NCBI GenBank assembly: GCA_017468865.1
Contig: JAFUHM010000005.1
Location: 1 to 64,000, forward strand
From: Oscillospiraceae bacterium
GTDB lineage: Bacteria > Bacillota > Clostridia > Oscillospirales > Ruminococcaceae
Length of the DNA: 64,000 nucleotides
Reading direction: 5' to 3'
The position numbers and the translations under genes were made by a program. This document shows positions 4,108-48,121 of this stretch, one piece after another; positions within the stretch are counted from its first letter, which is position 1; each line of letters begins with the position of its first letter. Under the pieces are notes generated by a model. It saw only the letters and a program-made list of their open reading frames with translations, was not told where the DNA came from and did not search any database.

Positions 4108-4136
4108 TTGACAAAAAAGTCATTTTATGGTATAAT
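4108..4136 (+). promoter_or_regulatory. Consensus extended -10 promoter of the DUF1292 gene
   Basis: TTGACA (4108-4113), 17-bp spacer, TATAAT (4131-4136) with TGG directly before the -10 box: a perfect match to the vegetative consensus. Confidence 0.9.
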
Positions 4137-4540: not shown

Positions 4541-4791
4541 AATGAATTCTGCCTTGTTCGATAAAGTGTGGCTTATGCGGATCCAACACTTCTTAATAGG
4601 GATTCAGTCTCCGACGGTGGATTGCAGACCTCCCGCCACATCATGTGTGTGGATCAACGGACGCAGGGAGCGTGAGATCGCCGGGCTGTTGCCCACCTGC
4701 TAGCGTGCGGGTTTCTTACTACCATACGGCGGCAAGGCGGTTATGTTGATTCACGGTATCCGTAGGTTAATGCCGATGGATACCGTTTTTT
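4541..4791 (+). ncRNA. ssrS: Structured RNA, probably 6S RNA
   Basis: A 355-bp gene-free stretch with its own promoter. The expected 5' end can pair with a segment about 190 nt downstream: CTGCCTTG (4549-4556) with CAAGGCGG (4733-4740). This gives a closed rod of about 200 nt, the 6S RNA plan. Inside are further helices, including AAGTGT/ACACTT just after the 5' strand and CCACA/TGTGTGG in the apical part. The sequence near the 3' strand (CGGCGGCA) resembles that region of E. coli 6S. A separate intrinsic terminator follows (4753-4761 with 4778-4786, then T6). 6S RNA binds sigma-A holoenzyme as a promoter mimic. A leader controlling the phosphoesterase gene at 4815 is the alternative; I see no known riboswitch core. 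Confidence 0.55.
4753..4791 (+). terminator. Intrinsic terminator after the structured RNA
   Basis: ACGGTATCC (4753-4761) pairs with GGATACCGT (4778-4786), followed by six T. It ends 24 nt before the next start codon. Confidence 0.8.
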
Positions 4792-44155: not shown

Positions 44156-44404
44156 TCACCAAAGTTTTTTCACAGACGGGCAGTGCATATCCTTGTACGC
44201 AGCACGCAGCTCCACAAAGCAGCCGCACTGCAGGCAGCTTCCCGAAGAAAGGTCATCACAGCCTTCACATATCCTGAGACGTTCCCTGTACTCATCCTCA
44301 CAGGTGCGTTCATCATCATCTATGAGAGATATCCTGATCTGAACGCTTTCATACATCTTCATGGGGTCGTATGAGGACAAAAGGCATCTTTTGCAGGGAG
44401 TCAC
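44156..44404 (-). CDS. Small Cys-rich protein, DUF6171-like
   Basis: An 82-residue protein with two cysteine clusters: CKRCLL at the start, then CEGCDDL...[15 protein letters not shown] and a final CP. The pattern suggests one or two zinc sites and matches my memory of DUF6171, a Firmicute family of unknown function. The GTG start overlaps the arabinofuranosidase stop by 4 nt (GTGA), so it is translated by coupling. No independent ribosome site is visible. Confidence 0.78.
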
Positions 44405-45879
44405 CTGGCGCTGACCTCAACTACGGAGCAGGGAGGGAGCTTCATGGAGATCTTCCCGTCCCTGACCGCTGCCGTAAAGGGGATGATCTTCACATTGTCG
44501 GGCGCATCAAAATCATTGTGCGCATGGACTTCATTGGTGAGTATCCTTCCGCTGACAGTACCTATCTCCATTCCGTGTACAGAGCAGGTGATGTCCGCAG
44601 ATTCAGCAAGTGAGCAGTTGCCTGCGGTTATCGTCAGAACGCCGTCCTTTACGGAAGCGGATGATGTTATCATAGGTACATCCTTCTTGCCGCCGATATT
44701 CTCATTCTGACAGCAGCAGTACACAGCATCACCGTTCTGATGCTCCTTGAACAGATCAAACACATGATAAGTCGGAGTCTTTATCATCTTTTCACCCTCG
44801 GTCAGGATGAGCGCCTGAAGCACATTGACCGCCTGGGCTATGTTTGCCATCTTCACTCTCTCTGAATGGCGGTTGAAGATGTTGAGGGAAATAGCCGCTA
44901 CAATGGCATCACGCATAGTGTTCTGCTGATAGAGAAATCCGGGGTTGGTGCCGGGCTCCACATCGAACCATGTGCCCCACTCATCAACTATCAGAGCCAC
45001 CTCGCCCTTCGGGTCATACCTGTCCATGATCTGCGAGTGACGTGTAATGAGTTCGTCCGTGAAGTTGACGGTGCCGAGAAGTTCAAGATACTCATTCTCG
45101 TCAAACTCAAGCGCAGAACCCTTGTTGTTCCAGTCGGGAACGGAATAGAAGTGCAGGGAGATGCCCTTTGCCGTCCAGCCCGCAGGGGTCTTCAGCCCCT
45201 TCATCATGCCCTCTGTCCAGTCATAATCCGAGCCGCTCGGACCGCAGGCTATCTTGTACAGATGATTGCCGCTGTGATCCTTGCAGAAGGTCTGGAACTG
45301 CTTGTACAGGCTGCAATAGTGATCTACCGACATATTTCCGCCGCAGCCCCAGTTCTCATTGCCTATGCCCAGGTATTTGAGTTTCCAGGGCTCTTCACGG
45401 CCGTTCTGACGTCTTTCGTCCGCAGCAGGGGAAACGTTTCCCGAAGTGATGTACTCCACCCATTCCGACAGTTCCTGAACAGTACCGCTGCCCACATTTC
45501 CGGAAATGTAGGGCTCGCATCCCACCAGATCGCAGAACTCCATGAACTCATGTGTACCGAAGCTGTTATCCTCGGTAACACCGCCCCAGTTGGTGTTTAT
45601 CATCTTCTTTCGGGAAGCCTTCTCCCCTATGCCGTCACGCCAGTGATACTCATCGGCAAAGCATCCGCCCGGCCAGCGGATAACAGGCATCTTTATGTTG
45701 CGAAATGCCTCAACCACGTCATTCCTTATGCCGTGAGTATTGGGTATGGGAGAATCCTCCCCCACATAAATGCCGTTATAGATACATCTGCCGAGATGTT
45801 CGGAGAAATGGCCGTATATCTCAGGATTGATATGACCGATAACGTCTTCTGTATTGATAAGCATATCAAATGTTCTCAT
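44401..45879 (-). CDS. GH51 alpha-L-arabinofuranosidase
   Basis: A 492-residue intracellular arabinofuranosidase removing terminal arabinose from arabinan, arabinoxylan or pectin side-chain oligosaccharides. Conserved [35 protein letters not shown], acid/base Glu in [12 protein letters not shown] and nucleophile Glu in [10 protein letters not shown]-terminal beta-sandwich from about 370. No signal peptide. Start 45879 with GGAGG 6 nt upstream. It fits beside the pectin locus and the xylanase. Likely cotranscribed with the Cys-rich gene. Confidence 0.95.
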
Positions 45880-46001
45880 ACATACCTCCATCATGTTTAT
45901 CGGATGCTGCGGGAGCGCATCTTACCAAATAGGTTTATCCCTGCTTTCGGAAAAGCACAAATCGCAAGCCTGCCGTTATCCTGCAGGGAGCATTTTCCTT
46001 G

Positions 46002-46030
46002 ATTATAGCACAGCGGGAAATGCAAAACAA
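46002..46030 (-). promoter_or_regulatory. Proximal promoter of the GH51 gene
   Basis: Minus strand: TTGTTT (46025-46030), 17-bp spacer, TATAAT (46002-46007), extended -10 TGC. Confidence 0.72.
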
Positions 46031-46247
46031 TAGCCTATTGTGTCATGATATACTGATTTATTGTGCTTTTGCCTTCGGATGAGGGAGCAGACAGCGGCGG
46101 CGGTACTCTCCGCCCCTCACGCAAAGAAACTGCATAAAGGAACATTAAAGCAAAATGAGCAGACCCTGCGGCGTTTGTTCATCAGTACAGAGGGCTGTGT
46201 ACTGACTGCAAGAGCCGCTATCGGCGGGCTGTATTTGGTCTTTATTT

Positions 46248-46276
46248 ATTATACCACATTTCAATGTACCTGTCAA
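46248..46276 (-). promoter_or_regulatory. Consensus promoter with no adjacent gene
   Basis: Minus strand: TTGACA (46271-46276), 17-bp spacer, TATAAT (46248-46253), extended -10 TGG. The expected start near 46241 opens a non-coding stretch. Confidence 0.8.
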
Positions 46277-46315
46277 GAGGGAATTTAAAAATTCCTCAAA
46301 AAAGCACCTGAAAAG

Positions 46316-46351: not shown

Positions 46352-48121
46352 TCATTCCTTGACTTCCAGAATTGAATAGAAAGCGGGCTTTGCCTGATAT
46401 TTGCGGTCAAAGAGGAGAGGCTGCTGAGCAGACCGCCAGCTCTTGTCATCCGTAACTCCCCATACGATAAGTGCGGACACATTATCCCTGTGCTCATAAA
46501 TAGCATTCATGATCCCCTTGTAGTAATCGGCCTGCGCCTGCATAAGAGAATCGCCCGACCCTGCATTGACAGTGGCATCAAGTTCCGTTATCTGGATATC
46601 AAGGCCCAGTTCCGAATACACATCCAACGCCTTGTTGTACATCGCCACGGACGGGAAAGCGTCAGGACCGCTCCTCACATCAAGATGCGACTGCATACCG
46701 ATACCGTCTATGATGCCCTTTTCCTTGAAGTCCTCCGCCATATCATATATGGCGTGCATCTTCACATCCATGTACTCATTGTAGTCATTATAGTACAGCT
46801 TGCATCCGGCAGGGGCATACTTCCTTGCGAATGTGAAGGCAAGTTCGATAAATGAGTTGTCGCCGTATACCTTCACCCAGGGCGAATGCTGTTCGGAATC
46901 CTCCTCACGGCATCCGGGAAGTCTGGGCTTTCCGTCCTCGAGCCATGCCTCATTTACCACGTCGCACGCATAGAACTCTATGTCGGGATAAAGCTCCCTG
47001 AGCGTCTCAAAGTAGTTCTTGATATAGTTCTCCATTCGCTTGGTCATCTTCTCGGGAGATACCCATTCCCCTGCCATGTCATAGCCTTCCTTAAAGAACC
47101 ATGTGGGTGTCTGGGAATGCCATACCAACGTATGTATGCGCATAGGCACCTTATTCTTGCTGCAGTAGCTGAGGATAGGCTTTGCACGGGAGAAGGATAT
47201 CTGAGGATTTTCGTCATCCCCCGTCTCCTCCAGATATGCAAGGGTCGCATCAAGGTCGAGCACATAGTCAGGCTTCATCTCATTGCCTGCGGTCAGGCTG
47301 TCCCCGAAATGCTTCTCGGTGAGTGCCATTGTTCCCCTTGTGCTGAAATCCTTTGACACAAGTGCCGTACCTACCTTGAAATCGCCCTCAAAGTGATCGG
47401 ACAGGGAAGTAAGCTCATTCTGTATGTTTGCCGAGGGAAGCATCGCCACATTGAAGTTGTCGATGAACATATCCGAAGCATCCCCTTCAAAATACACATA
47501 TACATCCTTCATCTCAGGAGTATACCCTACGGATATCTGTGTGAACGACAGCCAGTCATCGCCGCTCTTCTTGGCAAGGTTCTCATAGAAGACCTCGCCG
47601 CTCTCATCGGTGTACTGCATCATCATGGAAACAGAGCCGTGCTCCCTTGTCATGACGGATGCCGTTATCACATATTCCTCATAAGGCTCACAGATCTGGT
47701 CAAGCCTTATGGCCGGACGGTTCCATGTACCGCTTGGACTGGTCGCTACCATGCACTTGCTTCCGCCCTTTGACACTTCCGATGTGATGAACAGCTGTGT
47801 ATCATCGCCCTCCCTGACGGTGAATGCGGAGATATCATCATCCTCAAAGGTATAGAATGCCTTTATTGTAAGATCGGTGAGAGGGATGGTATTCTCCTCC
47901 TCGCTCTCTTCTGCGTCTGCGCTGTCCTCTTTCACATCTTCCGAAGCCTCTGCCGATGTCTCGGTAGTCTCAGCTGCCGTTTCTTCCGTCACCTGTTCGG
48001 ATGCGGCGGCTGTCTGTGCCGAAGTCTGTGCATCCGACCCTGCATTTGATGTACAGGATGTTATTGTCGCCAGGCACATAAGTGCCGCAGCAGCCCTGAA
48101 TATAGACGATCTTTTCTTCAT
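46352..48121 (-). CDS. GH10 endo-1,4-beta-xylanase lipoprotein with N-terminal CBM
   Basis: A 589-residue surface xylanase. Signal peptide ending TITSC (lipidated C23 likely), acidic Ser/Thr/Glu linker (to about 80), a CBM22/CBM4_9-like carbohydrate-binding domain (about 85-230: YTFEDDDISAFTVREGDD, MFIDNFNVAML), then a GH10 barrel (about 235-589). The acid/base Glu lies in ACDVVNEAW and the nucleophile in IQITELDA. It would cut xylan at the cell surface. No dockerin is visible, unlike cellulosomal xylanases. AAGGAG precedes the ATG. Confidence 0.94.
   Translation of the reverse strand: MKKRSSIFRAAAALMCLATITSCTSNAGSDAQTSAQTAAASEQVTEETAAETTETSAEASEDVKEDSADAEESEEENTIPLTDLTIKAFYTFEDDDISAFTVREGDDTQLFITSEVSKGGSKCMVATSPSGTWNRPAIRLDQICEPYEEYVITASVMTREHGSVSMMMQYTDESGEVFYENLAKKSGDDWLSFTQISVGYTPEMKDVYVYFEGDASDMFIDNFNVAMLPSANIQNELTSLSDHFEGDFKVGTALVSKDFSTRGTMALTEKHFGDSLTAGNEMKPDYVLDLDATLAYLEETGDDENPQISFSRAKPILSYCSKNKVPMRIHTLVWHSQTPTWFFKEGYDMAGEWVSPEKMTKRMENYIKNYFETLRELYPDIEFYACDVVNEAWLEDGKPRLPGCREEDSEQHSPWVKVYGDNSFIELAFTFARKYAPAGCKLYYNDYNEYMDVKMHAIYDMAEDFKEKGIIDGIGMQSHLDVRSGPDAFPSVAMYNKALDVYSELGLDIQITELDATVNAGSGDSLMQAQADYYKGIMNAIYEHRDNVSALIVWGVTDDKSWRSAQQPLLFDRKYQAKPAFYSILEVKE

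Follow-up and report, generated by a model that had tools for sequence, protein, structure and literature searches.

Tandem sigma-70/sigma-A promoters with a long 5' leader form a general bacterial class, and putative mobile promoters are short promoter units common to non-homologous genes; a literature search for the latter phrase found no paper. In the family of the organism studied here, gene-transfer-agent (GTA)-like packaging, including that of Ruminococcus callidus, and operons in Faecalibacterium were published in 2026, according to the accessible part of the source (PMC12946183), which also reported lysis and particles of Faecalibacterium in late stationary phase.

We analysed a stretch of 64,000 nucleotides (the window) from an Oscillospiraceae bacterium, in which a promoter, P1, lies between a GH10 and a GH51 gene (Table 1). 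Like the tandem-promoter class, P1 and a second promoter, P2, are two same-strand serial promoters before one gene, the distal one being the stronger in consensus; in contrast to that class, P1 is predicted from sequence, and the relatives read lack the distal promoter. P1 also resembles the promoters of tRNAs, RNase P and a lysine riboswitch in its own genome, which are full-consensus extended -10 promoters with no ORF directly behind them, whereas no recognisable RNA family follows P1. With putative mobile promoters it shares a unit common to non-homologous genes and a similarity that ends at the -10, yet its copies are few and convergence is possible. P1 further resembles the promoter of an FpGTA I-like capsid operon on contig C67 of the same genome, this likeness to FpGTA I being one of gene order with the accessible part of the published description (PMC12946183); no capsid gene lies near P1. 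Taken together, the stretch behind P1 looks ordinary in kind and lineage-specific.

Table 1. Features around P1, in window coordinates
Feature	Coordinates	Strand	Description
GH10 gene	46352..48121	-	with CBM_4_9; upstream of P1
Upstream stretch AATTTTTAAATTCCCTC	46277..46295	-	A/T-rich, partly palindromic, upstream of the P1 -35
P1	46248..46276	-	full-consensus extended -10 sigma-A-type promoter, TTGACA-17-TATAAT, TGG before the -10
5' domain	46147..46241	-	predicted to form one long irregular hairpin, which holds the CAGTACA/TGTACTG stem
Second predicted stem-loop	46073..46126	-	based on the fold of 207 nt
P2, putative GH51-proximal promoter	46002..46030	-	TTGTTT-17-TATAAT, TGC before the -10
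GH51-type alpha-L-arabinofuranosidase gene	44401..45879	-	PF06964 (E 7.9e-52), PF22848 (E 5.8e-07)

Results

The -35 hexamer TTGACA of P1 (46276-46271) is followed after a 17-nt spacer by the -10 element TGGTATAAT, which ends at 46248 on the minus strand, and both the spacing (within 16-18 nt) and the TGn are those of an extended -10 sigma-A (sigma-70-type) promoter. The consensus score of 12/12 confirms the original prediction of a full-consensus minus-strand promoter opening a 360-bp non-coding stretch. Allowing at most one mismatch, TTGACA-N14-TGN-TATAAT was found 10 times in the window against 0.05 expected from shuffles; the exact pattern has 8 copies in the window, P1 included, and 85 in the own assembly G000 (2,186,373 bases, 97.8% complete), where the reversed control gave 0. 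Given these counts relative to the shuffled and reversed controls, the promoter signal of P1 is real and belongs to a large class, and the sequence marks P1 as a genuine strong sigma-A promoter. It had rightly been ranked among the strongest in the window, a rank that it shares with the 8 exact window copies and the 85 genome-wide. Transcription would start near 46241, about 7 nt past the -10. The A/T-rich stretch upstream of the -35, which is common to P1, the terS promoters of the clade and the promoter of the lysine-riboswitch gene, is possibly an UP element or an operator.

With a simple greedy ORF map we examined 56 of the 85 genome copies and found 20 without a same-strand ORF within 300 nt or in the stretch read (for two of them, only 103 and 316 nt behind the promoter); a strong promoter with no ORF is therefore less unusual than had been assumed. 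A scan of all 20 against Rfam placed a known RNA directly behind seven, namely RNase P, the lysine riboswitch and five tRNA sites (one driven from window 44045-44017), and none behind the other 13, P1 among them. The P1-type promoter thus often serves RNA genes in its own genome.

Several further sites came to light in this survey. The full-consensus promoter at window 21492-21464 has no ORF for about 570 nt (z -2.61 over 200 nt; no Rfam match), and the first 200 nt behind two others (L023 1529, minus strand; L013 1501, plus strand) have z -4.26 and -3.65, likewise with no Rfam match. A 6S RNA (RF00013, 52.2 bits) occupies window 4543-4747, about 400 nt behind the full-consensus promoter 4108-4136. 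The lysine riboswitch (L130 1057-1266, 92.2 bits) lies directly behind a strong promoter, and the gene that follows it reads as aspartate-semialdehyde dehydrogenase. Seven similar full-consensus TTGACAGTGCATAGATGATGTGCTATAAT-like promoters, several of them near contig ends (G000 contigs C19, C23, C30, C51, C83, C84 and C94), are possibly rRNA operon promoters.

The next gene downstream of P1 is GH51 (ATG at 45879; Alpha-L-AF_C domain), whose start codon lies 362 nt from the inferred P1 start on the same strand; the heuristic gene map places the next ORF 368 nt past the P1 -10. Because a hairpin and a T-run, read from the sequence, follow the GH10 stop ahead of P1, P1 is probably insulated from GH10. 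The minus-strand ORFs of at least 30 aa wholly inside 46241-45880 are 31, 36 and 42 aa long, and a hidden small gene was rejected after the 36- and 42-aa ORFs gave no match in a PHROG search. A 67-aa ORF overlapping P1 (46348-46145) had no Pfam match; nor did a plus-strand ORF of 75 aa (46061-46288), which was rejected as a gene and whose sole PHROG match (E 0.0084) covers 16 residues of a functionally uncharacterised family. The claim that no gene starts behind P1 is therefore borne out, there being no credible gene ahead of GH51.

P2 was read from the sequence: its extended -10, TGCTATAAT, lies at 46010-46002, and it is missing from the promoter scanner's list owing to its -35, TTGTTT, which matches 3/6. 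GH51 thus plausibly has a promoter of its own, as originally proposed, though a weaker one than that proposal implied. The P2 -35 is overlapped by a perfect 15-bp palindrome, ACAATAGGCTATTGT (46041-46027), a possible operator. A terminator scan found no terminator-like site on the minus strand between 46241 and 45880.

Predicted folding is modest and is concentrated at the P1 end. The first 95 nt (46241-46147) fold at -30.7 kcal/mol (z -2.58; 3/200 shuffles equally good), the MFE structure being the same as the centroid structure, and the 207 nt from the P1 start up to P2 have z -2.24 (4/200 shuffles equally good). The proximal 117 nt after P2 do little better than shuffles (z -0.73), the whole 362 nt have z -1.54 (8/100 shuffles equally good), and fold windows starting beyond about 46090 have z mostly near 0 or positive. 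The folded part stops before P2, so a discrete RNA fits as well as a leader does. The hairpin that had been predicted is real, pairing TCAGTACA with TGTACTGA (46205-46198 and 46189-46182) over 8 bp with a loop of 8, and an 8-bp perfect inverted repeat also occurred in 17/300 shuffles of the 362 nt. Rfam covariance models gave no family or riboswitch above the gathering score in the stretch, and up to E 10 only DGCR5, which is on the other strand and meaningless; a known RNA behind P1 was therefore rejected.

The stretch is conserved among relatives in its P1 part only: blastn of 45880-46300 against 20 genus genomes, the own included, matched elsewhere just the promoter portion of about 45 bp. 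A single-sequence covariance model of 46241-46072 recovered itself and one match at E 0.87 in 19 congeners, which thus provided no homologues of a small-RNA candidate and so no alignment for covariation counts. A GH51 match is present in 18/20 genus genomes, and upstream DNA was read at 18 GH51 loci (2 own, 16 other). Ten of the 16 others have a divergent ORF 94-157 nt from GH51 with a shared N-terminal signature, and the two of these ten that were tested are both AraC-family; the remaining six show no AraC-like neighbour, which leaves the ancestral arrangement uncertain. No leader similar to the own one was found upstream of the 16 non-own loci. From the upstream stretches of all 18 loci a conserved GH51 leader or attenuator was rejected, since 10 of the 16 face a divergent AraC-like gene. 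None of seven other GH10 loci read has GH51 or P1 next to it, and among the relatives read the order GH10-P1-GH51 was seen in the own genome only.

When 46000-46290 was compared with the own genome by blastn, an unprompted match emerged at C67:5727-5769 (43 bp, 86%, E 1.6e-7), which is the promoter of a terS-terL-portal-scaffold-capsid operon. Of three further matches in the genus, two are terS promoters (G004 and G005); the remaining one follows an aminotransferase-like gene (as read from its ORF) and points into its 3' end. A scan of 84,980 species for the motif located it in RGIG1353, in RGIG7021 (twice) and in one Cloacimonadota record, and viral contigs scanned for the motif gave 0. Two strong promoters without an ORF are antisense to genes that, judged from their ORFs, are ABC transporter-like (L118 1550-1505, G004:C214) and aminotransferase-like (L116 938-881, G005:C138); both point into the 3' end of the gene.

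Some further candidates were rejected. A capsid-operon remnant was discounted because the resemblance does not extend past the -10 and searches of 50,697 phage and 72,556 plasmid records gave no match to the stretch. The LexA-type box, GAAC-N4-GTTC, occurs neither in the window nor in the one LexA-like locus read of the own genome, although some distant terS genes have it close by. Lysis genes controlled by the capsid promoter were discarded as well, a G013 holin having no match in the own genome, G004 or G005.

The operon on C67 (L038 5820-13304) comprises about 7.5 kb of terS-terL-portal-scaffold-capsid-connector-tail genes, the scaffold gene being so named from its place before the capsid gene. 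Chromosomal genes flank the operon on both sides, and the ORF list shows neither an integrase nor lysis genes in its vicinity. Its gene order fits that given for the FpGTA I operon of Faecalibacterium in the accessible part of the published description (PMC12946183), and it is likely a gene-transfer-agent-like element. TerL matches were found in 20/20 genus genomes and, many of them distant, in 101/148 family genomes. In 17/20 genomes (L041-L060) the 1 kb ahead of the best terL match contains a promoter-like site, of which AAATTTGCAAAAA..GCTTGACA-17-TGTGCTATTAT is a recurrent form; in G001 the site occurs only at -917, and the other three genomes were read over 320-720 nt. Near this site G001 carries GAACATATGTTC, which we take to be the Gram-positive LexA box. 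The capsid operon is a more interesting lead than P1.

Discussion

We hold with moderate confidence that P1 is a tandem upstream promoter that gives GH51 a long, partly folded, lineage-specific leader. The sequence and orientation of P1, the lack of a credible gene or predicted terminator behind it and the absence of the arrangement from the relatives read are the observations behind this reading. On this basis GH51 would be served by two promoters in tandem, P1 being the distal one. Transcripts initiated near 46241 would begin with about 200 nt of untranslated, folded sequence and then extend past the weaker P2 into the gene. GH51 would be expressed from two mRNAs, one with the long leader from P1 and one with a leader of about 118 nt from P2. 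The arrangement would be lineage-specific, having arisen where GH51 came behind GH10, away from a divergent AraC-type regulator. Of the two products first suggested, a small RNA and an attenuating long leader of GH51, the long leader is the simplest outcome, because P1 and GH51 are on the same strand and the 362 nt that precede the start codon contain no predicted terminator; attenuation is unsupported and a small RNA lacks conservation. In favour of the tandem arrangement, a long or absent ORF distance is common in the promoter class (20/56); against it, so near-perfect a promoter would be surprising at a minor upstream start site, and 7/20 ORF-less promoters of the class drive stable or regulatory RNAs.

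That last count also bears on the main rival, in which the product of P1 is a separate small RNA of about 95-210 nt that ends before P2 and is trans-acting or a stable structural RNA. We consider this possible but doubtful. The single long hairpin of the first 95 nt, with its agreement between MFE and centroid, is what such an RNA would offer, and the first 200 nt (z -2.49) rank 13 among 55 promoters, beside the lysine riboswitch (-2.53); yet z is -2.3 or lower for 8/100 200-mers taken at random from the window, the stretch has no predicted intrinsic terminator, and neither Rfam, the structure model in the 19 relatives nor blastn beyond the promoter part returned anything real. A folded leader ahead of a sugar-metabolism gene might suggest instead that GH51 is controlled by attenuation or by a riboswitch, which the missing terminator-like site, the absence of an Rfam riboswitch, the weak fold of the proximal 117 nt and the lack of a similar leader in the relatives read make very improbable. 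It is just as hard to credit that P1 matches the consensus but has no role, initiation there being weak or the RNA quickly degraded: no product is conserved and the arrangement occurs in one genome only, but a full consensus with an extended -10 is far above chance in the window, and tRNA, RNase P and riboswitch genes of the own genome have promoters of the same class.

The resemblance to the terS promoter raises a further alternative, that P1 is a dispersed copy of, or is co-regulated with, the promoter of the GTA-like terS-terL-portal-capsid operon and that the stretch is transcribed with that operon; we regard this as unlikely. The unprompted blastn match and the two terS promoters among the three genus matches speak for it, as does a model, R3, built from three terS promoters only, which gives P1 39.7 bits where the next site, the training site apart, reaches 26.2 (258,543 own-genome bases). 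Moreover, spacer identity is 10-12/15 against at most 9/15 in the other 55 consensus promoters, and P1 is the one promoter of the 56 whose spacer starts with GG. Yet the promoter of the lysine-riboswitch gene matches P1 at 24/35 positions outside the hexamers, against 25-27 for the terS promoters and the ORF-less copy in G005, the 24/35 being a selected maximum because that promoter was picked by a model partly built from P1. The inclusion of this promoter in the comparison of 55 (38 earlier) weakens the link, and since it is nearly as similar, the likeness may have arisen by convergence on an optimal promoter. R3 also gives 32.0 bits to an unrelated site in Cloacimonadota, the similarity stops at the -10, GH51 is not known to take part in particle production, and only two or three ORF-less copies were seen across three genomes. 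The link between P1 and the terS promoter is accordingly suggestive at most, and convergence may explain much of it. A more far-reaching version, in which P1 belongs to a small dispersed promoter set of one rumen Oscillospiraceae/Ruminococcus-like clade that shares the capsid-operon regulator, so that the folded RNA or long-leader GH51 mRNA would be made only during particle production, we consider highly unlikely.

If P1 is only an upstream promoter, its meaning is local: a gut fibre-degrader would have its arabinofuranosidase gene under a near-perfect promoter, apart from the usual AraC-type neighbour. The analysis also provides a calibration, in that a gene-less full-consensus promoter is common in this genome and leads to a known RNA in 7 of 20 cases. 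Were the shared capsid-operon regulator true, a fibre-degrading gene or an RNA would be tied to a gene-transfer programme; and a genuine resemblance to the capsid promoter would provide a sequence-level entry to the activation of GTA-like operons in this family.
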